Positions 2,387 through 24,747 of a stretch of DNA of 46,504 nt are shown one piece after another. Within the stretch, counting starts at the first letter, position 1. Every line of letters starts with the position of its first letter. Both the position numbers and the translations under genes were made by a program. The stretch lies in assembly GCA_012517875.1 (NCBI GenBank), contig JAAYUB010000101.1, positions 1-46,504 of the forward strand, written 5' to 3'. Origin of the DNA: Acidobacteriota bacterium. Lineage in GTDB: Bacteria > Acidobacteriota > JAAYUB01. The notes under the pieces were generated by a model. That model had not been told where the DNA came from. It did no database searches and saw only the letters and a program-made list of their open reading frames with translations.

Positions 2387-3404
2387 CCAGTCACCCACCG
2401 ACATCGTGCTGCTGGCACACGGCAGCGGCGGCCAGATGTCGCACCGCCTGGTGACGGAGTATTTCCTGCCGGCTTTCGCCAATCCCGCCCTAAATCTGCT
2501 GGAGGACAGCGCACCCGTTGACGCGGACGGTGCCCGACTGGCGCTGACTACCGATTCGTACGTCGTGGACCCGCTGTTCTTTCCCGGCGGGGATATCGGC
2601 CGGCTCGCGGTGTGTGGCACCGTCAACGACCTCGCGGTGAGCGGCGCGCGGCCTCTGGCCCTGACCGCCGGCTTCATCCTCGAAGAAGGCCTGCCGCTCG
2701 CCGATCTGCGCCGCATTCTGGAATCCATGCGGGCGGCGGCGCTCGAGGCCGGCGTCCCCGTCGTGGCGGGGGACACCAAAGTGGTGCCACGGGGCAAGGG
2801 CGACAAAGTGTTCATCAACACCGCCGGTGTTGGTCTCCTGCCGCCGGGGCGAGAGGTCGGCGCCCGGCGCGCCCGCCCCGGCGACGCCGTGTTGATCAAT
2901 GGGCCTGTGGGCGACCACGGCATCGCCGTCATGCTGGCTCGCGAAGGTTTCCAGGTATCGGAGGAAGTCCGGTCGGACTGCGCACCGTTGTTCACCCTGA
3001 TCGATCCGCTGTTCCAGGCCGGTCTGCCCGTGCATGCGATGCGCGATCCCACCCGCGGCGGTCTGGCCACGGTCTTGAACGAAATCGCGTCGGCAGCGTC
3101 CGTCCGCATCGAGGTCGACGAAGAGTCGGTGCCCGTTCGACCGGCGGTGTTCGGAGCGGCGGAGATCTTCGGCTTCGATCCGCTCTATCTCGCCAACGAA
3201 GGCAAGGTGGTATTCTGCCTGCCCGAGGAATGTGCCGGACCGGCGCTTGCACTGCTCCGAAGCCACCCGCTGGGGACCGCCGCCGCCATGATCGGCCGCG
3301 TGCTCGACTGCCCGGACCGACCCACCGTCACTCTTCGGACAGCGATCGGCGGCGGGCGGGTGCTTGACATGCTCGTCGGTGAGCAGCTGCCCCGCATCTG
3401 CTGA
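2379..3404 (+). CDS. hypE: Carbamoyl dehydratase HypE
   Basis: HypE (341 aa) is an AIR-synthase/PurM-fold enzyme. It accepts the carbamoyl group from HypF on its C-terminal Cys and dehydrates it with ATP to a thiocyanate, the donor of CN to the hydrogenase iron. The protein ends in PRIC, the hallmark acceptor cysteine. The N-terminal part has the usual LLAHGSGG motif and the nucleotide-binding TTDSYVVDPLFFPGGDIG stretch. I chose the ATG at 2379, which overlaps the hypC stop by 8 nt, because upstream in-frame codons read as hypC in another frame. No hydrogenase structural gene is visible downstream, so this is the end of the hyp operon. Confidence 0.95.
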   Translation: MNDQSPTDIVLLAHGSGGQMSHRLVTEYFLPAFANPALNLLEDSAPVDADGARLALTTDSYVVDPLFFPGGDIGRLAVCGTVNDLAVSGARPLALTAGFILEEGLPLADLRRILESMRAAALEAGVPVVAGDTKVVPRGKGDKVFINTAGVGLLPPGREVGARRARPGDAVLINGPVGDHGIAVMLAREGFQVSEEVRSDCAPLFTLIDPLFQAGLPVHAMRDPTRGGLATVLNEIASAASVRIEVDEESVPVRPAVFGAAEIFGFDPLYLANEGKVVFCLPEECAGPALALLRSHPLGTAAAMIGRVLDCPDRPTVTLRTAIGGGRVLDMLVGEQLPRIC

Positions 3405-3405
3405 A

Positions 3406-3433
3406 TTGCGAAACGCGGTAGTTCTGGTAGAAT
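3406..3433 (+). promoter_or_regulatory. Putative sigma70-type promoter for acyl-CoA synthetase gene
   Basis: TTGCGA (3406-3411), a 16-bp spacer and TAGAAT (3428-3433) lie directly after the hypE stop and 17 bp before the chosen ATG at 3451. The interval is AT-richer than its surroundings. The assignment is by pattern only. Confidence 0.4.
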
Positions 3434-3450
3434 ATAGAAAACTCGGCCCG

Positions 3451-5196
3451 ATGAGGTTCAAGGTGCGCAAACTGGAAGACAAGTTCTATCCCGTCGAGCC
3501 GTTCAAAGATTTCCGGGAAATGCTCCTCAACAGCCGCCAAAAGTGGGGCACGCATCCCGCTTTCATGGAGAAGGTGGACAACGAATGGCGGCCCACGACG
3601 TTCAACAAACTTTTCTATTCCGTGATGTCACTGGGCTGCGGCCTGCGAAGCCTGGGCATGAATCGGCAGATGAATGTGGCATTCGCTTCGGAGAACCGCA
3701 TCAATTGGTGCATCACTTATCTTGCGGTCGCATGCGGCAACGCCGTCTGCGTCCCCATCGACAAGGAGTTGAAGAGTCAGGAATTTTTCCACATCCTCTA
3801 CACCACCCAGACGGAGATTTTCGTCGGCTCCCAGAAGTACGTGGACATGGTGCTGGAGATGACCGGCTCTCTGCCCCACCTGCGCCATATCATCAACATG
3901 GACGACCGGGCGGAAAACTCCATGGTGCTGAAATTCACGGACATTCTTCATGACGGCAGTCGCCTGTTCGACAAGGATGCCTCCGATTATCCCTACACCG
4001 TGATCGAACCCGACCTGCCCACCTGCATCCTCTTCACATCCGGCACCACCGGCACGTCCAAGGGTGTGATGCTCAGCCAGAGCAACATCATCGCCGACCT
4101 CCGCGCCATGCTCCAGGTCATTCCCATCCGCCATCCCGAAGTCTTCCTCAGCGTCCTGCCCCTGCACCACACCTATGAATGCACTTGCGGATTTCTGGGC
4201 CCGGTTTCCCACGGCATGACCGTGGCGTTCGCTGAAAACCTCAAGCGCATTCCGGATAACCTGCAGGAGGTCCACGCCACCATCCTGCTGGGCGTGCCCC
4301 TGCTCTACGACGCCATCTACCGCAGGATCATGGAGCGGATCGCCGAGAAGGGCATGACCAAGTTCCGCATCGGCAAGGGCATCGCTTCATTCACCGAGCG
4401 GCTGTTCCACAAGAACATCCGCCGCCAGGTGTTCAAGGCGCTGCACGAGCGGTTCGGCGGCCGCCTGAAACTGCTCATCAGCGGCGGCGCCGCGATCTCC
4501 CCCGAGATCACCCGGGGGTTGCGGGAGCTCGGCCTCACCGTCATCCAGGGTTACGGCCTGACGGAGACGTCACCCGTCATCACCCTCAATCGTGTCCATA
4601 ACTTCAAGGATGATTCCGCCGGCCTGCCTTTGCCGGGCGCAGAATTCAAGATCGACAACGGCGAGATCTGTGTTCGCGGCCCCATGGTGATGCTCGGTTA
4701 CTACAACAATCCTGAAGCCACGGCCGAGGTGATCGTCGACGGGTGGTTCCATACCGGTGACCTCGGATTCATCGACGCGGACGGATTCCTGTTCATTCAA
4801 GGGCGCAAGAAGGCGGTCATCGTCACCGCCAACGGCAAGAATGTCTATCCGGAGGAGATCGAGTACCAGCTCAACCGCAGTCCGTTCATCCTGGAATCAC
4901 TGGTCTGGGAGGGACCTGACGCTCATAAGTACTGTGAGGAGGTCCACGCCATCATCGTGCCGGACATCGCCTACTTCGACCAGTACCTGACGAAGCAGGG
5001 CAAGAAAATCAGCGAGCACGAGGTTGAGGAGATCCTCAAGCAGGAAGTCCAAAAACAGTGCAGCCGCCTGGCCAACTACAAGCGGGTTCAGCGCTTCACC
5101 GTCCAGTGGGAGGAGTTCGAGAAGACGACCACCCGCAAGATCAAGCGCTACCTGTACACCAGCAAGATCCGACCGGTCAGCGGCAAGCACGAATAG
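3451..5196 (+). CDS. Long-chain fatty acid-CoA ligase (AMP-forming)
   Basis: This 581-aa ANL-superfamily adenylating enzyme would activate long-chain fatty acids to acyl-AMP and then acyl-CoA at the inner face of the membrane. Family motifs are clear: the P-loop-like FTSGTTGTSKG near residue 195, YGLTETSP near 368, GWFHTGDLG near 431, and a C-terminal Lys in TTRKIKR that should be the adenylation lysine. Length fits the FadD/FACS group. The ATG at 3451 begins MRFKVRKLEDKFYP; upstream in-frame codons run into the hypE coding region and look unlike protein. The ribosome binding site is weak. No beta-oxidation genes are adjacent, so the role (degradation or lipid remodelling) cannot be decided here. 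Confidence 0.88.
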   Translation: MRFKVRKLEDKFYPVEPFKDFREMLLNSRQKWGTHPAFMEKVDNEWRPTTFNKLFYSVMSLGCGLRSLGMNRQMNVAFASENRINWCITYLAVACGNAVCVPIDKELKSQEFFHILYTTQTEIFVGSQKYVDMVLEMTGSLPHLRHIINMDDRAENSMVLKFTDILHDGSRLFDKDASDYPYTVIEPDLPTCILFTSGTTGTSKGVMLSQSNIIADLRAMLQVIPIRHPEVFLSVLPLHHTYECTCGFLGPVSHGMTVAFAENLKRIPDNLQEVHATILLGVPLLYDAIYRRIMERIAEKGMTKFRIGKGIASFTERLFHKNIRRQVFKALHERFGGRLKLLISGGAAISPEITRGLRELGLTVIQGYGLTETSPVITLNRVHNFKDDSAGLPLPGAEFKIDNGEICVRGPMVMLGYYNNPEATAEVIVDGWFHTGDLGFIDADGFLFIQGRKKAVIVTANGKNVYPEEIEYQLNRSPFILESLVWEGPDAHKYCEEVHAIIVPDIAYFDQYLTKQGKKISEHEVEEILKQEVQKQCSRLANYKRVQRFTVQWEEFEKTTTRKIKRYLYTSKIRPVSGKHE

Positions 5197-15456: not shown

Positions 15457-15939
15457 ATGACGGTCCAAGTTAGAATATTCGCGTTGCTGATGTTTGCCGC
15501 CGGACTTTGTCTCCCGCTGCCGGCCGATCCGCAGGCCGGCCAGGACGACAAGTCGCGCAAACCCGCACCCGTGCTTATTCGAGACGATCAGACGCAGCAG
15601 CCGGATATGGAAATCCCCGCGGATGAGACGGTCGAACCCGATCCCATCAAGGCGGAACGGGCGTTTGAGGTGGCCTGCTACTACGTCAAGCGGAAGCAGT
15701 ACGACGCCGCGATCATGCGCTTTCGCGAAGCGGTCAAATACAAGCCTGATTTTGCCGAGGCCAAGTGGCGCTTCGTGGACACTCTGATCCGGAAGAAAGA
15801 CTGGCGCAATGCCGTCGAGTTCGCCAAGGGTTACCTCGCGGATCCGAACATGAAAGACTTCGTCCAACGGCTGTCCGCCCTGAAGACCGAGGCGGAGAAA
15901 CATCTGGCCGCCACCCCAGCCCCTAAGGAGAACGAATGA
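15457..15939 (+). CDS. Secreted TPR-containing protein
   Basis: This 160-aa protein has an N-terminal signal peptide (hydrophobic about residues 6-21), a charged linker, and from about residue 65 one to two tetratricopeptide units (CYYVKRKQYDAAIMRFREAV then WRFVDTLIRKKDWRNAVEFA). In the BamD/YbgF-like manner it probably mediates protein contacts in the periplasm; its partner is unknown. Its stop overlaps the dsbD start (ATGA), so the two are co-translated, suggesting that the TPR protein works with DsbD or its clients. Confidence 0.75.
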   Translation: MTVQVRIFALLMFAAGLCLPLPADPQAGQDDKSRKPAPVLIRDDQTQQPDMEIPADETVEPDPIKAERAFEVACYYVKRKQYDAAIMRFREAVKYKPDFAEAKWRFVDTLIRKKDWRNAVEFAKGYLADPNMKDFVQRLSALKTEAEKHLAATPAPKENE

Positions 15940-17831
15940 TCGCCCGCTGTCTCATCACCGGTGCCATGCTCCTCGTCGCGTCCGGCCTGTACAGCCCGGC
16001 GCAAGCCGAAAACTATTTTCATTTCAAACTCATTCCGGAAATACTATCGCTGAGCCGGGGCGCCGACGCCCAGCTGGTTCTCGAGATCCGGACTGATGAC
16101 GGTTATTATCTTTACAAAGACATGTTGGCGATCAAGGCCGCCGGGCCGGCCGGCGTGGAACTGGGCGCGGCGGTCTTTCCACCGCCCCACATCAAATTCG
16201 ACCCGGCGAGCGACATGGAACGGGAGATTTACGAGGGCACCAATCGGTTCCCCATCTCCCTGACCGCCGGCGACAGATCGCCGGCGCGCGGCCTGATCAC
16301 GGTCACCGTGGACTACCAGGGCTGTTCCAAGCTGATCTGCTATCTGCCCGCCACGACCAAGCTGGAAGCCGAAATCGTGGTTACAGTCGGCCCGGCGTCA
16401 AACCGGGCGCAAGCACCCCCGGCAACCCAGCCGGTGCCGTCCCGTGAACCCGACCCTTCGGTTGCGGTGGCGTCGCCGGCCAGCCCCGCCATTCAGGAGA
16501 CGGATCTGCCGAAGCCGGCTCCCGCGCCGACCTCGCCATCCCCTGAGACCACCGCGCCGTCCGAGGCCGACACCATCCGGGACATGATCGGCCAGAGCCA
16601 TCTGCTGGCGTTCCTGTTCATCTTCGTCTACGGGATCGGCCTGAGCTTCACCCCGTGCGTCTACCCCGTCATTCCAATCACGGTAAGCGTGTTCGGCGCC
16701 CGCGGCGCCGAGACCAAGTTGAAGGGCTTCCTGCTGTCGCTGGTGTACGTGCAGGGGATTGCCATGATCTACTCGGTGCTCGGCGTCGCCGCGGCCTTGT
16801 CAGGTGCCGTGTTCGGCCAGCACATGAGCAATCCGTGGATCGTGGGCGCCATCGTGGCCCTGTTCTTCGTCCTGGGCCTGTTCATGGCGGGCGTGTTCCA
16901 GTTCAACCTCCCCTCGTCGGTACAGACGAGGGCCGCGCAGGTGGGCGGCAAGGGTTTCGTGGGTGCCTTCACCATGGGGCTCGTGTCCGGCGTGATCGCG
17001 GCGCCCTGCACAGGACCGGCGCTGGCGGGCGTGCTGGCCTACGTGGCCACCACGCGCGACGCGCTGCTTGGCTTCCTGCTCTTGTACACGTACTCCATCG
17101 GATTCGGTTTGATCTTCATGGTGCTGGGCACCTTCTCCACCCTCATCCAGAAGATCCCCAAATCCGGCGCCTGGATGGAGATCGTCAAGGGTATCTTCGG
17201 GGCGGCGATGTTCACCGTGGGCCTCTATTTCCTCAAAGACATCGTGCCGTCTCTGCAGCTCAATTTCCTCAGCCGCGACGCCCTCCTGCTGGCCGGCCCG
17301 CTGCTCGTAGTCATCGGGTTCCTGTCACGCGGGCTGCGGCATGACCTGCACGGGGCCAGTTGGCGCCAGATTCTGCACAAGAGCTTCGCCATCGCCGCCC
17401 TGACGGTGGGCGCGTTCGCCTTCGTTATGGGCGCCATCCGCCCGGCTGAACCGCCCCGCACGGGCGGTGTCGGCAACGAAGCCGGCGTGGCCTGGCTGCA
17501 CGACCTCGACACGGCCCTGGCGGCCGCCCAAGAGTCGGGGAAACCGGTGATGGTTGACTTTTACGCCGACTGGTGCGCCGCCTGCAAGGAACTGGATCTG
17601 TACACCTGGTCCGATCCGAAGGTTCAGGCCGAGCTCCGTCGGTTCGTCGTGGTAAAAGTGGACATGACCCGGCCCTCCCCCCACGATGCCCACTACAAAT
17701 CCACCTATGGAATTGTCGGATTGCCGGTGGTGGCGTTCCATGATTCACAGGGCCGGCTCCTCGCCGCGCCCCGTGTCACCGGCTTCGTGGCGGCGGAACC
17801 TTTCCTGAAACTCATTCAGGATGTCCGCTGA
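15936..17831 (+). CDS. dsbD: Thiol:disulfide interchange protein DsbD
   Basis: This inner-membrane reductant conduit (631 aa) moves electrons from cytoplasmic thioredoxin to periplasmic proteins. All three DsbD modules are visible. After a signal peptide (1-24) comes the periplasmic alpha domain with Cys130 and Cys135 (GCSKLIC). A Pro/Ala-rich linker (about 155-210) leads to the membrane domain (about 222-480) with Cys241 in TPCVYP and Cys358 in APCTGP. The C-terminal thioredoxin domain has Cys547/Cys550 in DWCAACKELD. In this window, clients could be the many c-type cytochrome and SCO proteins. It converges with the 139-aa gene downstream. Confidence 0.93.
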   Translation: MIARCLITGAMLLVASGLYSPAQAENYFHFKLIPEILSLSRGADAQLVLEIRTDDGYYLYKDMLAIKAAGPAGVELGAAVFPPPHIKFDPASDMEREIYEGTNRFPISLTAGDRSPARGLITVTVDYQGCSKLICYLPATTKLEAEIVVTVGPASNRAQAPPATQPVPSREPDPSVAVASPASPAIQETDLPKPAPAPTSPSPETTAPSEADTIRDMIGQSHLLAFLFIFVYGIGLSFTPCVYPVIPITVSVFGARGAETKLKGFLLSLVYVQGIAMIYSVLGVAAALSGAVFGQHMSNPWIVGAIVALFFVLGLFMAGVFQFNLPSSVQTRAAQVGGKGFVGAFTMGLVSGVIAAPCTGPALAGVLAYVATTRDALLGFLLLYTYSIGFGLIFMVLGTFSTLIQKIPKSGAWMEIVKGIFGAAMFTVGLYFLKDIVPSLQLNFLSRDALLLAGPLLVVIGFLSRGLRHDLHGASWRQILHKSFAIAALTVGAFAFVMGAIRPAEPPRTGGVGNEAGVAWLHDLDTALAAAQESGKPVMVDFYADWCAACKELDLYTWSDPKVQAELRRFVVVKVDMTRPSPHDAHYKSTYGIVGLPVVAFHDSQGRLLAAPRVTGFVAAEPFLKLIQDVR

Positions 17832-18351: not shown

Positions 18352-19746
18352 TCAGGACTCGTCGGGGAATATTTTGCCGGGATTGAGGATGCCGGCGGGA
18401 TCGAAGGCCTGCTTGATCCGCCGGGTCAGCGCCAGAACGTCCGGCGCCAGATTGTAGCGGATGTACCGTTTTTTTGCCAGTCCGATGCCGTGCTCGCCGC
18501 TGATGGCGCCGCCCAGCGCCACGCTGGCTTTGAAAATTTCCTCGACGGCTTCCAGCGCCCGTTTCACCTCGTCGCGGTCCTGCCGCTCGGCCAGCAGGTT
18601 CACGTGGAGATTGCCGTCGCCGGCGTGCCCGTAGCAAACGATGGTCACCTGGAACCGCGCGGCAATCTCCTCAATCCGGCGCAGGATGCGTGGCATCTCG
18701 CTTCGCGGGACGACGATGTCCTCGTTGATCTTGAGGCTCTTGAGGCGGGTGATAGCGGGCGAGATGGTGCGACGGAATTCCCAGATGCGCTCCCGCTGGG
18801 CGGCGTCGGTCGCCTCCAGCGCAATTTGCCCGCCGTGCGCCTTGACCTGGTCCAGCAGCCGGATGAAATCCGCCTCGACGTCACCAGGTTTGCCGTCGAT
18901 CTCCACGAGGAGCAGCGCCTCGGCGTCGGTGGGTATGCCGTAGTGCAGGACGGCCTCCACCGCCCGGATGGATGGCCGGTCCATCAGCTCCAGCGCCGTG
19001 GGGATGATCCGCGCGCGGATGATGCCGGCCACGGCGGCGCCCGCGTCCTCCACCGATGCGAAGGCGATGAGAAGGGTCCGGCGCACCTCGGGGAGCGGCA
19101 GCAGTTTGAGGGTGAGCTGGGTGATGACCGCCAGCGTTCCCTCCGAACCCACCAACAGCCCCAGGAGGTCGTACCCCACCACGTTCTTGACCATCTTGCC
19201 GCCGGCGGAACAGACAGTCCCGTCCGGGAGGACGAAGCGCGCACCGAGCACGTAGTGTTTGGTGACACCGTATTTCACCGCGCTCAGACCGCCTGCGCAT
19301 TCGGCCACATTGCCGCCCAGCGTCGAGGTGTTGGCGCTGGCCGGATCGGGTGGATAGAACAGACCGAAAGGCTTGACGGCGTCCTGAAGGTGCTGAGTGA
19401 CGACGCCCGGTTCGACGACGGCCACCAGATTGTCGGTGTCGATTTCCAGGATCCGGTTCAGCCGGGTCATGGCCATCACGATGCCGCCGCAGGCGGGAAC
19501 GCAGCCGCCGGTCATCCCGACACCGGCGCCGCGCGGCGTCACCGGTATCCGATGGTGCTGACACAGCGCCATGACGCCGGCCACTGCCGATTCGTCCGGC
19601 GGGAACACCACCAGCTCCGGTCCTTCGGGCGCCGGCTCGTTCATGGCGTCCAGCGAGTAACAGATCAGCGTCTCGGGGGCGTCGGCCACGTGCTCGGAAC
19701 CCAGCAGGTGGCGCAACGCGTGAGTGAACGGTCTGGGCAGGGTCAT
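18352..19746 (-). CDS. glcD: FAD-linked oxidase, glycolate/D-lactate dehydrogenase GlcD type
   Basis: This 464-aa VAO/PCMH-family flavoprotein oxidises a 2-hydroxy acid such as glycolate or D-lactate. The FAD-binding PCMH half has TPRGAGVGMTGGCVP and DPASANTSTLGGNVAECAGG. The C-terminal cap has CYGHAGDGNLHVN, SGEHGIGLAKKRY and FDPAGILNPGKIF, which are signatures of the GlcD/D-LDH group. Partner subunits GlcE and GlcF (Fe-S) are not in the window. It overlaps the LarA-family gene by 4 nt, so a racemase and a D-specific dehydrogenase appear coupled; a lactate-utilisation role is plausible but inferred. The ATG at 19746 lies within this overlap. Confidence 0.88.
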   Translation of the reverse strand: MTLPRPFTHALRHLLGSEHVADAPETLICYSLDAMNEPAPEGPELVVFPPDESAVAGVMALCQHHRIPVTPRGAGVGMTGGCVPACGGIVMAMTRLNRILEIDTDNLVAVVEPGVVTQHLQDAVKPFGLFYPPDPASANTSTLGGNVAECAGGLSAVKYGVTKHYVLGARFVLPDGTVCSAGGKMVKNVVGYDLLGLLVGSEGTLAVITQLTLKLLPLPEVRRTLLIAFASVEDAGAAVAGIIRARIIPTALELMDRPSIRAVEAVLHYGIPTDAEALLLVEIDGKPGDVEADFIRLLDQVKAHGGQIALEATDAAQRERIWEFRRTISPAITRLKSLKINEDIVVPRSEMPRILRRIEEIAARFQVTIVCYGHAGDGNLHVNLLAERQDRDEVKRALEAVEEIFKASVALGGAISGEHGIGLAKKRYIRYNLAPDVLALTRRIKQAFDPAGILNPGKIFPDES

Positions 19747-21029
19747 GCGCGCGCTCCGGCGGCGAAAAACGTCAGGGCGCCTTCGGGCACCACCAGTCCA
19801 CGATACCCCTCGGGCAGTCCGTGCAGCGCGGTTTTCAAGGCTGCCGCCAGCGAAGCCGCCGGTACGAGACCCGTCGCCGACACCTGCTCTGTCGGCAGCT
19901 CCGAGATCAGGTGGATGTGATACCGCCTGGCCTTTTCGAACAGGGCCAGAGCGGTCTGGCCGTTGATGACGTAGTTGCGGATGAGTTCCTCGCGGAATTC
20001 CCGCTCGCTCCGAAATCGGAACCAGGGGAAGAAGGTGGGGTGCCCCATCCCTTCCGGACAGGCGGCAAGGACCACCATGGTTCCGCCCGGTCGGAGCGCA
20101 TGCCGTGCCATCTCAATGGCCTTGTGAGACTGGATGAGGTTGATATCGCGCGGGTGGCCGCCGGCGCTCACGATGACCACGTCCGCCGGTTCGTCCAGCG
20201 GGATAGTGTGCCGCGCCAGGTAGCGTCGGCACGCTTCTTCGTGCGAGGCGATGGCGTGGCCGCAAACGCACTGGGCCACGGCGCCGGCGGCGGTGGTCAG
20301 GGCGTTGATCGCAAACACGCGCTCCAAGCCCACCAGCCGCAGCGCCGCCACCATGTCCTCGTGGACCGGGTTGCCGTTCAGGACGGCGGTGCCGACGCCG
20401 GGGTGACGTCCGGAGCCGTCGGGTTTGAAAACCAGGTTGTGGTTGAATGTGATGGTGGTCTTGGCGGCCAGGCCGGGCAGCAGGCTTTTTCTTCCCCCGG
20501 TGAAACCGGCAAAGTAGTGAAAACCGATTCCGCCGATCACCACGATCGCGTCGGCCTCCGCCACCGCCCGGTTCAACCGGATGGTGTTGCCGGAGGGAGT
20601 GCGTCCGAAATCCGCCAGTTGTTCGTCGTCCTCGGCGTCGTGCACGAGGATATTCGCCCCTGGGAATGCCGTGGTCGGCACCAGCCGCCGGATCTCCCCC
20701 GGCGTCGGTGGACGATGGATGCCAGTCGCGATGATTATCCTTATTTCTTCGTATTTTATATTGTAGTATTTAAAGTATTTTGACAGAGCATCCAGGATGA
20801 TTTCCGAGCCTGTCCTACGGGTAGCGTCGGAGACCACGAGCAGTGGGCGGCGGCGGCCGGCGAGAAACGCGGCGAGGGACGGACTATCCATCGGACGGTC
20901 GCAGGCCTCGACGAAGTGTCCCGCCAGATTGGGTGCCGTTTCCATGGGGGGAAGCGCCGCCACTTGGAAGCGCCGGTCCGGCAGCTTGCCGGTGACCGTG
21001 TGGCGGTGATATTTTAACGTGACGATCAT
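19743..21029 (-). CDS. larA: LarA-family nickel-pincer racemase (DUF2088)
   Basis: LarA enzymes racemise or epimerise 2-hydroxy acids using a nickel-pincer nucleotide (NPN) bound to a lysine. In this 428-aa protein the residues corresponding to Lactiplantibacillus LarA His108, His174, Lys184 and His200 are found at 105 (IATGIH), 171 (GFHYF), 181 (GGRKSLL) and 197 (FNH), with identical spacing, so the protein is likely an active NPN enzyme. The substrate may be lactate or a related hydroxy acid. I chose the ATG at 21029, which overlaps the stop of the upstream radical SAM gene (ATGA). Cofactor genes larB, larC and larE are not in the window. Confidence 0.85.
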   Translation of the reverse strand: MIVTLKYHRHTVTGKLPDRRFQVAALPPMETAPNLAGHFVEACDRPMDSPSLAAFLAGRRRPLLVVSDATRRTGSEIILDALSKYFKYYNIKYEEIRIIIATGIHRPPTPGEIRRLVPTTAFPGANILVHDAEDDEQLADFGRTPSGNTIRLNRAVAEADAIVVIGGIGFHYFAGFTGGRKSLLPGLAAKTTITFNHNLVFKPDGSGRHPGVGTAVLNGNPVHEDMVAALRLVGLERVFAINALTTAAGAVAQCVCGHAIASHEEACRRYLARHTIPLDEPADVVIVSAGGHPRDINLIQSHKAIEMARHALRPGGTMVVLAACPEGMGHPTFFPWFRFRSEREFREELIRNYVINGQTALALFEKARRYHIHLISELPTEQVSATGLVPAASLAAALKTALHGLPEGYRGLVVPEGALTFFAAGARA

Positions 21030-22180
21030 CGGCTGAACACTCCCGGCAGGCGCGTCTGGCACGAGGGGCAGCGCCCGTCCTTCAATGCGTTCTGGACGAT
21101 CTCGAAGCCCACCCGCTGGATGAGCATCCGGTTGCAGGAGGGGCAGCGCGTGCTCTCCTCGGGATGGCCGTAGACATTGCCCACGTAAACGAACTTCAGG
21201 CCGACCTGACGTGCTTCGGCACTGAGCTTTTCCAGCGTGGCCACCGGCGTGGGCGGCAGATTCTGGAGCTTGTACATGGGGTGAAAACGCGTCAAATGCA
21301 GCGGGACCTGGTCGCCGAGATTCTGGCGGATCCAGCGGAACATCTTGCGGTTTTCCTCCAAGTTGTCATTGAGCGTCGGGATCACCAGCGTCACCAGTTC
21401 CAGCCAGATGCCGGCTGCGGCGATCGCCGCCAGGGCGTCGAGGACCGGCTTGAGATGTCCGCGGCACACCTTGGCGTAGAAGTTCTCGGAGAAGCCCTTG
21501 AAATCCACCTTGATGGCCGAGAGCACCGGGATGAGCTTGCGCAGCGGCTCGATCTGGATGTATCCGTTGGAGATCATGACACTGCCGATCCCGAGCTTGC
21601 GGGCTTCCGCGGCCACGTCGTACATATACTCATAGAACACCACCGGTTCGGAGTACGTGTAGGCGACGGTGGGACTGGCGTACTGGCGCGCCAGCGCCGC
21701 CACGCGCGTCGGCGGCAGATCCACGCTAGGCACCTGCTCCGGCCGGAACTGGGAGATCTGCCAGTTCTGGCAGTACTGGCATTCCATATTGCAGCCGGAG
21801 GTGGCAATGGACAGCGCCGAGGTGCCCGGCAGGTAGTGGAACAGGGGCTTCTTCTCAATGGGATCGATGTGGGTGGAGCAGACCTGGCCATAAGCCAGCG
21901 TGTAGTACTTCCCGCCCCGGTTCTCACGCACGCCGCAGGTGCCGCGCTCCTGGTCGGCCACCACGCACTCGTGGGGACAGAGCTTGCAGCGCACTTTCCG
22001 GTCGCCCAGCGGCTCCCAGAAGCGGGCCTCCCGCACCTGCGGCACCGCCCCGCTCCTGAACTTCAATCCGTCCAGGTTCACGGCCGGATGCCCTTCACCG
22101 GCCCGGTCCTGGCCCATGGCGCAGCCGCAGGCGGCGAGCGTGAACAGCTTGGCCATGTCCCGTCGGCTCCAGCGCGTCAT
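21026..22180 (-). CDS. amrS: AmmeMemoRadiSam system radical SAM enzyme (AmrS)
   Basis: The protein (384 aa) has an unusual layout. An N-terminal twin-arginine-like leader (SRRDMAKLFTLAACGCAMG) is followed by a Cys cluster (65, 68, 72, 82), the radical SAM motif CNMECQYC (Cys130, 134, 137), and a C-terminal CxxC pair-of-pairs zinc ribbon. AmrS enzymes accompany Memo and AMMECR1 proteins; the reaction is unknown. The ATG at 22180 has GAGGAG seven bases upstream; the internal Met22, which would remove the leader, has no ribosome binding site. The gene follows DUF362 by 43 bp and overlaps the LarA gene. Confidence 0.88.
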   Translation of the reverse strand: MTRWSRRDMAKLFTLAACGCAMGQDRAGEGHPAVNLDGLKFRSGAVPQVREARFWEPLGDRKVRCKLCPHECVVADQERGTCGVRENRGGKYYTLAYGQVCSTHIDPIEKKPLFHYLPGTSALSIATSGCNMECQYCQNWQISQFRPEQVPSVDLPPTRVAALARQYASPTVAYTYSEPVVFYEYMYDVAAEARKLGIGSVMISNGYIQIEPLRKLIPVLSAIKVDFKGFSENFYAKVCRGHLKPVLDALAAIAAAGIWLELVTLVIPTLNDNLEENRKMFRWIRQNLGDQVPLHLTRFHPMYKLQNLPPTPVATLEKLSAEARQVGLKFVYVGNVYGHPEESTRCPSCNRMLIQRVGFEIVQNALKDGRCPSCQTRLPGVFSR

Positions 22181-22223
22181 GACCATCTCCTCGATCCGGG
22201 CGACGCGGGCGGCGCCGCTCGAT

Positions 22224-23222
22224 TCAGATCTCCAGCCAGCGGATGGCATCCAGGCATGCCTCTCCGAGGCCCAATCGCCCGGCCTCCGCAAGGTAAGCCG
22301 GCTCACGATGCTCGGCGGCCAGCGTGGACATCCCCGCCTCCCGGCGCCGGCGCTCGATGATCTCCTGTGCCACCCGGTCGGCGGCCACCCCGTCCGTGGC
22401 GACAATGAGCCCGTGAAAGGGCCAGGTGTACGCCGAATGGAAGGCCGGCCCACCGTGATACTGGGCCAGGTGGGCATCGGCGATGTGCAGGCGGACTTTG
22501 CGGCGGATGCTGTCGTGGGTCCAGAGGTGGGCGACGGACGGGGAGCAGTTGTCGTTGTGGTACTTGTTCGGGTTGTGGATGACACCGTAGAAATTCTTCA
22601 ACATCACCGCCACGCCGGCCAGGTCGTGGTCCTTGAGCACGCCCAGGTTGATCGCCGCGGTGCAGTGCCGCGTGAGGATGCGGGCGAAGCAGGAACCCAC
22701 CGTCATGGCATGGCTGAGCTGAGGCTCGTAACCGTCCACCAGCGCGTCGGTGCCGAAGATCTTCAGTCCACGACCTGTGGTATTCAGGGTGTAGCCGGCC
22801 CGTTGGAGTTCCCGGTCGGAGCGGTCCCAGACGATGATTCGCTCGTCCGGGATTCCGGCCCCGTTGAGCCGCATGGCGATCGCCCGGACCAGTTCGTACC
22901 GTGGGACCAGCGGCCGGCCGGCCATGGCGTTCACCTTGATGGCCACCACGTCATCGGGCCGGAACAGACGCTTCCAGGCGGCTGTGGCGGTCTCTTCCTC
23001 CATCAACCGGGCCATGGCGCGATCGAGCAGCGCGCCCGGCGTCGCCGGAGTGGTGCTCCCCTTGGCTGCTCGGGCAACAACCACCCGGCCCCGCCACCGG
23101 TCCGTCGGAACGATTTCGCCGAATGCATTGTGGAACCATTGGGTCGATGCGCCGATAAGCAGGGGGCCGGCTGCGACGGTCTTGAGGCTGTCGGTCAGAA
23201 ACTCGCGCCTACTCCTTCTCAT
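22224..23222 (-). CDS. Tat-exported DUF362 protein
   Basis: The 332-aa product has a textbook Tat leader (MRRSRREFLTDSLKTVAAG), predicting export of a folded, possibly cofactor-bearing protein. The remainder fits the DUF362 family, with stretches such as DDVVAIKVNAMAGRPLVPRY, CTAAINLGVLKDHDLAGVAV and the downstream MLKNFYGVIHNP. No CxxCxxC ferredoxin domain is present, unlike many DUF362 proteins. It sits between the Memo-AMMECR1 fusion (14-nt overlap) and the radical SAM gene, so it probably belongs to the same Amr system. The function is unknown. Confidence 0.8.
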   Translation of the reverse strand: MRRSRREFLTDSLKTVAAGPLLIGASTQWFHNAFGEIVPTDRWRGRVVVARAAKGSTTPATPGALLDRAMARLMEEETATAAWKRLFRPDDVVAIKVNAMAGRPLVPRYELVRAIAMRLNGAGIPDERIIVWDRSDRELQRAGYTLNTTGRGLKIFGTDALVDGYEPQLSHAMTVGSCFARILTRHCTAAINLGVLKDHDLAGVAVMLKNFYGVIHNPNKYHNDNCSPSVAHLWTHDSIRRKVRLHIADAHLAQYHGGPAFHSAYTWPFHGLIVATDGVAADRVAQEIIERRRREAGMSTLAAEHREPAYLAEAGRLGLGEACLDAIRWLEI

Positions 23223-24747
23223 TAAAGACCACCGCCGTGAAGGTCATCAGGACGGCGTCCGGCTCGCGGTAGGCGCCGGCGGGCAAGCCGGCCTTGCGGC
23301 AGACCTGCTCCAGGAACTGCCGTCGGTCCCAGCCCCACTCCACGGGCACCTGGGGCAGGAGCAGCCCGGACCGGCCGCTCTTCTGGATGACAAGGCCGTG
23401 CTTCCCCACCTGCACGGTCTGCGGATCAGGACACGGCGCCAGGGGGGAGAGAACGGAGATTTCAATCCGGAGTTTCCGGAGCTCGTCCCGGGTCACCGGC
23501 GGGAATCGTGGGTCTCGCACCGCTGCGTTGACGGCCATGTCGGCGACCGCCTGGTACAGCGGCACCTGCGGAGTGACGTACCCGATGCAGCCCCGCAGCT
23601 CGCCGCCACGGGTGAGTGTGACGAACGCACCGCGGAGCTCCTTGAGCCGAGGGGTGAGCGTATACGCGCCGACGTCCACCGCCGGCTGCCTGCCATCGCG
23701 CATGTAGGCATCCAGCGTCCGTCTGGCAATGCTCAGCAGGGTGTTTTTTTCCGCCGGGCTCAGTGTGTATTCGGACGCAGCCGGGGTCTCCTGCGCGCCG
23801 CCGGCGACCTGCGGATCGGCAAACAGAATGGAAACATAGCTGACGGATTTCGTGAAGTCACGGGTGATCTCCCCGGAGGTGGTGTATTCCAGCACCCGGC
23901 CCTTGATCACTTTTTTCTTCGCCAGCTGCTGCAACGCGCGGATGGCGATGCTGATGCCGTTGCGGCCGCAAATCGTGTCGCGGGTGGTCCGAATGTGTTC
24001 CATGAATCCGTCGTAATCCAGGGCCGCGATCTGGCCCGCCGCCTTCAGGTTCCATTTTTTGAGATTGCCCGCCGGATCATCGCGGAACGGCACGAAGCCG
24101 TAGTTGGGGCCGTAATGCGTGAAGTCGGAGGAGACCACGAGCAACGTCTGCTCGTCGAGGAGCGGTTCGAGAAGTCCGGCCAGCGTCCGCACATCCTCCG
24201 ATTTCAGGTCGCCCACCAGGATGGGGATGATCCGGACCTTGGGCAGGGTCACCTGGAGGAACGGCAACTGGCATTCCAAGGCGTGCTCCCGGACGTGTGC
24301 GTCGGGCGCGTCCACGAACAGGGCATGGGTTTGCAGCCGCCGGCAGGTTTCCAGATCGAGATACACCGGCCCCAGCGGCGTGTCGTAGGCGGCGGCAGGC
24401 GTGATGGATGCGCCCCGGAAGGCACCGTAATGGGCCGGGGCCAGCAGCACCACGCGCTCCCACTTGCCGCCGCGCAGGTGCACGTAGCCGGCGGCGGCGG
24501 TGGAGCCGGAATACACGTAGCCGGCGTGGGGCACCACCAGCGCCACCGGCGGCTCGTCCGGTTTGCGCACCGCGTTACGGGCCGCCCGGTCAAGGAGGGA
24601 CTGCACCTGGGTGCGAAGGCCGTCGGCCGACGCCTCATACCACAAGCCGGCCACCGCCGCCTCGCGGTGGGGTAGATCGCCTGCCGCCGCCGGCATGACC
24701 ATCACCGCCATCAACAGAACCGCCAGGAGACAATATTGGGCTCTCAT
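23209..24747 (-). CDS. amrB: AmmeMemoRadiSam fusion: Memo (AmrB) plus AMMECR1 (AmrA)
   Basis: One 512-aa chain joins two Amr components. Residues 1-23 form a Sec signal peptide. About 25-310 is a Memo domain with the metal/active-site set at His74 (PHAGYVYSG), His106 (APAHYG), His211 (SSDFTHYG) and Cys260 (DTICGRNG). About 325-512 is an AMMECR1 domain with LRGCIG at 384-389 and the usual RDPRFPPV. Memo homologues bind metal (copper or iron), but the bacterial function is not settled. TGAGGACGCA precedes the ATG at 24747. It is the first gene of the minus-strand run of DUF362, amrS, larA and glcD. Export would place the system outside the cytoplasm. Confidence 0.87.
   Translation of the reverse strand: MRAQYCLLAVLLMAVMVMPAAAGDLPHREAAVAGLWYEASADGLRTQVQSLLDRAARNAVRKPDEPPVALVVPHAGYVYSGSTAAAGYVHLRGGKWERVVLLAPAHYGAFRGASITPAAAYDTPLGPVYLDLETCRRLQTHALFVDAPDAHVREHALECQLPFLQVTLPKVRIIPILVGDLKSEDVRTLAGLLEPLLDEQTLLVVSSDFTHYGPNYGFVPFRDDPAGNLKKWNLKAAGQIAALDYDGFMEHIRTTRDTICGRNGISIAIRALQQLAKKKVIKGRVLEYTTSGEITRDFTKSVSYVSILFADPQVAGGAQETPAASEYTLSPAEKNTLLSIARRTLDAYMRDGRQPAVDVGAYTLTPRLKELRGAFVTLTRGGELRGCIGYVTPQVPLYQAVADMAVNAAVRDPRFPPVTRDELRKLRIEISVLSPLAPCPDPQTVQVGKHGLVIQKSGRSGLLLPQVPVEWGWDRRQFLEQVCRKAGLPAGAYREPDAVLMTFTAVVFNEKE

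Follow-up and report, generated by a model that had tools for sequence, protein, structure and literature searches.

A minus-strand Memo–AMMECR1, DUF362 and AmrS gene cluster with predicted export leaders in an Acidobacteriota bacterium: a probable exported paralogue of the Amr system

Organisation of the locus

The window analysed here, a stretch of 46,504 nucleotides from an Acidobacteriota bacterium (contig JAAYUB010000101.1 of assembly GCA_012517875.1), carries a tight run of six minus-strand genes, reading from 24747 to 17925, that encode in order a Memo–AMMECR1 fusion, a DUF362 protein, AmrS, a LarA-like protein, a GlcD-like protein and a small protein. The first two genes overlap by 14 nt, a gap of 43 nt separates the DUF362 gene from amrS, amrS overlaps the LarA-like gene by 37 nt and the latter overlaps the GlcD-like gene by 4 nt, in line with the initial annotation, which had described the genes as overlapping or nearly touching.

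The fusion protein (AmrB plus AmrA; 512 residues, 23209–24747) matches PF01875 (6e-60) and PF01871 (3.6e-55), as well as TIGR04336 and TIGR04335; its Memo part scores 229.7 bits against a curated cut-off of 26, and its AMMECR1 part 179.5 bits against 99. The AMMECR1 motif LRGCIG (residues 384–389; 23581–23598) is conserved in the collected set. The DUF362 protein (332 residues, 22224–23222; PF04015, 6e-13) has a predicted LarA-like fold, and AmrS (384 residues, 21026–22180) is the AmmeMemoRadiSam radical SAM enzyme (TIGR04337, 4.6e-110; 367.8 bits, cut-off 220). The interval 18352–24747 additionally holds two leaderless proteins of the same operon, a LarA-like racemase (19743–21062; PF09861 and PF21113, under the NCBIfam LarAH cut-offs) and a GlcD-like FAD oxidase (18352–19746; TIGR00387, 2.7e-145, under the cut-off), whose link to Amr function is uncertain. 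A GlcD-like gene also lies near AmrS in locus L042 and in Scalindua (L189). On the opposite strand of the window, some 3–4 kb from amrS, a DsbD with a thioredoxin domain is encoded (15936–17831, plus strand), which could supply periplasmic reductant.

Predicted leaders

Leaders were called from motifs and a hydropathy script, followed by reading of the sequences. The N-terminus of Memo–AMMECR1, MRAQYCLLAVLLMAVMVMPAAAG, is of the Sec type, with an AxA site (residues 1–23; 24679–24747), and fused homologues are leadered too. That of DUF362, MRRSRREFLTDSLKTVAAGPLLIGAS, is of the Tat type (about residues 1–38; 23109–23222), with RRSRREF followed by a hydrophobic stretch, and homologues in window-type loci bear a Tat leader as well. 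AmrS begins with MTRWSRRDMAKLFTLAACGCAMG, again of the Tat type (residues 1–24; 22109–22180), from an ATG that lies shortly 3′ of a GAGGAG site. All three leaders had been proposed in the initial annotation and were found as described. Its statement that all the proteins carry leaders holds for the three of the window and fails as a general rule, since DUF362 is leaderless in a large related branch and three loci have a leadered Memo next to an AmrS lacking a leader.

Conservation of the AmrS leader

The TIGR04337 match to the window's AmrS begins at residue 52, so that residues 1–51 are extra to the family model. This could be taken to mean that the leader is an artefact, either because the true start lies downstream, at Met22 or later, or because the twin arginine arose by chance; we regard this as extremely improbable. 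Position 22 is Met in the window and Leu in both of two congeners, and against these congeners pN/pS is 0 and 0.15 for codons 1–20 and 0.12 and 0.10 for codons 52–384, compared with 2.9 and 1.4 for the in-frame stretch 5′ of the ATG. The non-conserved Met22, together with selection on codons 1–20, disposes of a misplaced start, and the leader is under purifying selection, starting at the ATG. Chance is excluded as the source of the arginine pair by its invariance in our AmrS alignment A1 and by the presence of an RR leader in 80/80 best AmrS matches from a search of 396 acidobacterial genomes. Conservation of the leader, a point raised in the initial annotation, thus extends over these 80 matches and many other phyla; among homologues with the same gene arrangement as the window, none was seen that starts at Met22 or beyond.

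The hydrophobic stretch of the window's leader is short, and TatC is encoded in the same genome. With a twin arginine followed by a hydrophobic stretch, both conserved in homologues, AmrS has the sequence features of a Tat substrate, and export is predicted. A LAAC lipobox in the window's AmrS was considered and rejected, as it is not conserved outside the genus.

Leadered and leaderless Amr sets

The genome of the window encodes a second AmrS, which is leaderless and adjoins a selB-like gene (contig C40), and a standalone, leaderless Memo (contig C2), implying that cytosolic and exported sets coexist. AmrS was found in 239 of the 396 acidobacterial genomes, many of which have two copies, and typical second matches begin directly at the enzyme domain, with no leader; the occurrence of both forms together is common in Acidobacteriota. 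Most genomes are metagenome assemblies and the loci were gathered by similarity, and leader frequencies are to be read as those of such a set and not as unbiased. In a quick AmrS tree, in which one long leaderless branch is placed uncertainly, the leadered proteins cluster and nearly all leaderless ones fall apart from them, so that few changes of state are needed. Tandem AmrS genes, both Tat-leadered, occur in one acidobacterial genome with four AmrS matches (G343; locus L120, 4554–6800).

The form of Memo follows that of AmrS. A fused Memo–AMMECR1 gene, of about 480–620 residues and present even where it does not adjoin AmrS, was found in 23 of 24 acidobacterial genomes with an exported-type AmrS, the locus of the 24th being cut by a contig end, as against 2 of 24 with leaderless AmrS only. 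Fisher's test, for which the first group was entered as 24/24 and the genomes are not independent, gave p = 2e-11 when counted by genome and p = 1e-6 when counted by family code. In genomes with exported-type AmrS the fused proteins that were read are leadered, and the standalone Memo proteins read (about 275 residues) have no leader; in several genomes with leaderless AmrS only, Memo, AMMECR1 and AmrS lie close together and are all leaderless. Fusion does not in itself entail export, because Ideonella has a fused, leaderless Memo–AMMECR1 adjoining a leaderless AmrS, and fusion as the sole cause of Memo leaders is thereby ruled out.

There are exceptions to the pairing. A leaderless AmrS stands beside a leadered Memo in loci L179, L204 and, in Segatella, L271, and genomes G007 and G046 have a fused, leadered Memo–AMMECR1 with only leaderless AmrS. 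These five cases suggest, from their sequences, that an exported Memo–AMMECR1 may work without an exported AmrS in some lineages. The Segatella locus (2411–4828) lies on a plasmid of the human gut species Segatella hominis, and its AmrS is short (295 residues). Two further observations concern Memo: a third, divergent protein of about 390 residues with its own Sec leader is encoded at locus L007 (genome G000, contig C31), with similar weak homologues of 350–430 residues in many acidobacterial genomes; and four near-complete acidobacterial genomes (G196, G142, G085 and G075; loci L290, L291, L292 and L296) have a leaderless AmrS, with no Memo found in them.

Exported-type AmrS occurs under about 20 phylum labels, archaea included, in some cases with a Sec-type leader. 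Labels with a Tat-leadered AmrS in a named scan were Acidobacteria, Deltaproteobacteria, KSB1, Latescibacterota, Chloroflexi, Planctomycetes, Poribacteria, Stahlbacteria, Bacteroidales, Altiarchaeota, Aenigmatarchaeota and others. The AmrS proteins of Omnitrophota and WOR-3 have Sec-type N-termini, and Memo–AMMECR1 is leadered wherever it lies alongside. Since the route changes between Tat and Sec with the same predicted outcome, this suggests that it is the location, and not the RR motif, that is kept.

AmrS and Memo chemistry

Besides the radical SAM motif CX3CX2C, AmrS retains a second site of four cysteines and, at its C-terminus, a CxxC pair. In the window the motif reads CNMECQYC (C130, C134 and C137; 21770–21793; PF04055, 5e-17) and the second cluster comprises C65, C68, C72 and C82 (21935–21988); all Fe–S cysteines are invariant in alignments A1 and A3. 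The nearest solved relatives of the AmrS core, both in sequence and in fold, are pyruvate formate-lyase activating enzymes (PFL-AE), which abstract hydrogen from a protein glycine. AmrS has the superfamily motif and, as judged from the fold of a relative, the SAM-binding barrel, and is predicted to cleave SAM. In Memo, the metal ligands of MEMO1, which are H49, H81 and C244 (PMC11081632), are conserved. Given this conservation and the proximity of AmrS to PFL-AE, we favour, by analogy, the abstraction of an H atom from an envelope substrate, or from AMMECR1 or DUF362 themselves. No glycyl radical enzyme was seen among the neighbours of the Amr cluster.

A haem c motif in one AmrS branch

In one branch of the AmrS tree (SH-aLRT 100) the Tat leader is followed by a linker that carries CxxCH, usually with a later His, in 21/21 loci (19 distinct sequences). 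Cytochrome c assembly genes are present in all 11 haem-branch acidobacterial genomes tested. The window's AmrS lacks CxxCH and lies outside this branch. Covalent haem attachment occurs only outside the cytoplasm; if haem does bind, the motif is therefore independent evidence for export, and the haem would be a possible point of electron entry into AmrS. An AlphaFold model of one such protein has a core of high confidence (mean pLDDT 88.6), but around the CxxCH linker it is too weak to place the motif relative to the clusters. None of the 19 haem-branch AmrS counted has a DUF362 neighbour, and for this reason haem and DUF362 may replace each other.

Does AmrS still act on SAM at all? No SAM is known outside the cytoplasm, and together with the CxxCH of this branch this invites the proposal that exported AmrS has become an Fe–S (plus haem) electron-transfer protein and is no longer a SAM enzyme. 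Against this, every exported AmrS in the alignment retains CX3CX2C and the TYxEP region, and the low pN/pS of codons 52–384 points the same way, making the proposal distinctly unlikely.

DUF362 as a candidate nickel-pincer protein

The AlphaFold model of DUF362 (pLDDT 85.7) finds LarA-family enzymes as its best Foldseek matches (probability 1.0, E 3.5e-5), and DUF362 and LarA belong to one Pfam clan (PMC11770544). A K-x-H-x9-K-x12-H pattern, in the window K197, H199, K209 and H222 (22557–22634), is invariant in 82/84 full-length DUF362 proteins. Alignment with hhalign pairs H199 and K209 with His174 and Lys184 of LarA, and H222 is placed at His200 by spacing, not by the aligner; in LarA, H174 is catalytic, and K184 and H200 hold the nickel-pincer nucleotide, His200 being the Ni ligand (PMC11770544). 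In the region of the second catalytic histidine, LarA H108, there is no invariant His in alignment A2, a position that was not aligned rigorously. No PDB sequence match for DUF362 was found, and the lack of conserved cysteines rules it out as an Fe–S protein. DUF362 is thus predicted, from sequence and model, to carry a LarA-type nickel-pincer nucleotide. A Tat leader is consistent with this, since a protein to which a cytoplasmically made cofactor is covalently bound would require the Tat route. LarC (PF01969) occurs in 22/22 DUF362-type genomes compared with 6/11 haem-type genomes, a comparison that other LarA genes confound.

In about 33 related loci a leaderless DUF362 stands directly beside a Tat-leadered AmrS, an arrangement compatible with Tat hitchhiking or with a cytosolic role. 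Some 20 loci (L089, 9110–10024, and relatives) have an upstream gene for a DUF6599 exported-type protein, in most cases on the other strand; these loci mostly combine a leaderless DUF362 with a Tat-leadered AmrS. Hitchhiking would fit a scheme in which AmrS performs its radical chemistry a single time, in the cytoplasm, on DUF362 or another partner, after which Tat exports the completed complex; the leader would then serve the product and not mark where the enzyme works. Tat does export folded complexes, and the scheme removes the problem of SAM and reductant. In window-type loci, however, DUF362 has its own Tat leader; the haem-branch AmrS is leadered even though DUF362 is absent from its neighbourhood; and the Sec-leadered Memo–AMMECR1 would be unfolded in the cytoplasm and could not take part. 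We consider cytoplasmic action unlikely.

Neighbouring membrane proteins

Clustering of neighbours revealed a membrane protein of 650–790 residues with a spermidine-synthase domain near AmrS, its gene frequently overlapping the end of amrS by about 40 nt. It accompanies 88/154 exported-AmrS loci and 3/48 leaderless loci, some of the latter having shorter flanks. It shows conservation of a glycine-rich nucleotide site and of acidic residues. The N-terminal helices can be counted as six or seven, and the catalytic domain may accordingly lie on either side of the membrane. This protein was not found in the window's genome and is therefore excluded as a universal partner; no paper tying a protein of this type (NF037959) to Amr was found among the open-access papers searched.

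The frequency of this membrane partner, and the possibility that some leaders remain uncleaved, might suggest that the AmrS leader is a membrane tether, with the catalytic domain held in the cytoplasm, close to a substrate in the membrane. Tat and Sec signals nevertheless place the following domain outward, the Memo–AMMECR1 leader is of a cleavable type and the CxxCH haem site needs periplasmic attachment. A tether therefore seems very unlikely.

In Omnitrophota-type loci, NosR/RnfG-like and DsbD/CcdA-like proteins adjoin AmrS. A membrane protein with FMN_bind and Fer4_5 domains (NosR/RnfG-like), a possible electron donor, is encoded directly upstream of AmrS in L193 (7413–8741) and also in L154, L164, L194 and L159; in L193 and L159 AmrS itself appears leaderless.

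A putative extracytoplasmic Amr system

We consider it probable that the cluster is an exported paralogue of the Amr system, in which the Fe–S and cofactor proteins are exported folded and modify an envelope substrate outside. AmrS, with its [4Fe-4S] clusters, and DUF362, with its predicted nickel-pincer nucleotide, would fold with their cofactors in the cytoplasm and cross the membrane by Tat, and the Memo–AMMECR1 fusion would cross by Sec and could therefore meet AmrS only outside. There, an envelope substrate would be modified by PFL-activase-like radical chemistry through H-atom abstraction, with electrons reaching AmrS via membrane or periplasmic redox proteins: the built-in haem c in one branch, and NosR/RnfG-like or DsbD/CcdA-like neighbours in others. 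At the level of sequence this reading is supported by the leaders, which are conserved, by a leaderless set of paralogues in the same genome, by the way in which AmrS and Memo–AMMECR1 covary in export type and by the conserved catalytic residues. The initial annotation had proposed an extracytoplasmic modification system, a view strengthened by the leaderless set and by the match of fused, leadered Memo–AMMECR1 with exported AmrS. What we infer beyond this is that the proteins do cross the membrane and co-localise, that radical SAM turnover takes place on the outside with SAM and reductants available there, and also the nickel cofactor, the substrate and the reaction.

Catalysis by radical SAM enzymes depends on SAM and on a low-potential electron donor, and we know of neither outside the cytoplasm; the supply of SAM there is the main weak point of the exported-Amr reading. 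Among the open-access papers searched, none was found that deals with the export of radical SAM enzymes or with where Amr proteins are located. We would advance only tentatively the wider proposal of a radical SAM enzyme, widespread among prokaryotes, that is active outside the cytoplasm and is supplied by haem c or by membrane redox proteins. Its partners would be an exported Memo–AMMECR1, an exported DUF362 of the nickel-pincer type and, in many lineages, a spermidine-synthase-like membrane protein acting on a SAM-type co-substrate.

The conservation of Memo and AMMECR1 extends from archaea to humans. In the search for their reaction, the exported branch restricts the candidates to substrates accessible outside the membrane, and the presence of both paralogues in one genome permits a direct comparison. 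Should AmrS indeed act outside, the expectation that radical SAM chemistry stays within compartments containing SAM would be broken, which raises the question of how SAM and electrons of low potential reach the enzyme. One purified protein each would suffice to test the haem branch and the cofactor predicted for DUF362.

Comparison with known systems

LarA itself is cytosolic. DUF362 shares the fold of the LarA and LarAH nickel-pincer racemases (PDB 7s91, 9q3k) and has H199, K209 and H222 at the positions of H174, K184 and H200, but the similarity is weak (the Foldseek E-value given above), a counterpart of His108 was not seen and DUF362 has a Tat leader. The AmrS core finds its best match, in sequence and in fold, in the PFL activating enzyme (PDB 3c8f, 3cb8), which is cytosolic, smaller (245 residues) and has neither the extra cysteine cluster nor the C-terminal CxxC pair. 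The metal ligands of MEMO1 and the LigB-type dioxygenases are conserved in Memo (PMC11081632), which here is leadered, with export predicted, and fused to AMMECR1. The fused MFS/spermidine synthase model NF037959 is matched by the neighbour protein of many exported-AmrS loci, the window's genome being an exception. With AmmeMemoRadiSam (TIGR04335/TIGR04336/TIGR04337) the cluster shares all three components, above curated cut-offs, adjacent genes and conserved active-site residues. Its cytosolic form, as in G065, G027, G395 and Ideonella, is leaderless throughout, whereas in the window all parts bear Sec or Tat leaders, Memo and AMMECR1 are fused and DUF362 is added.
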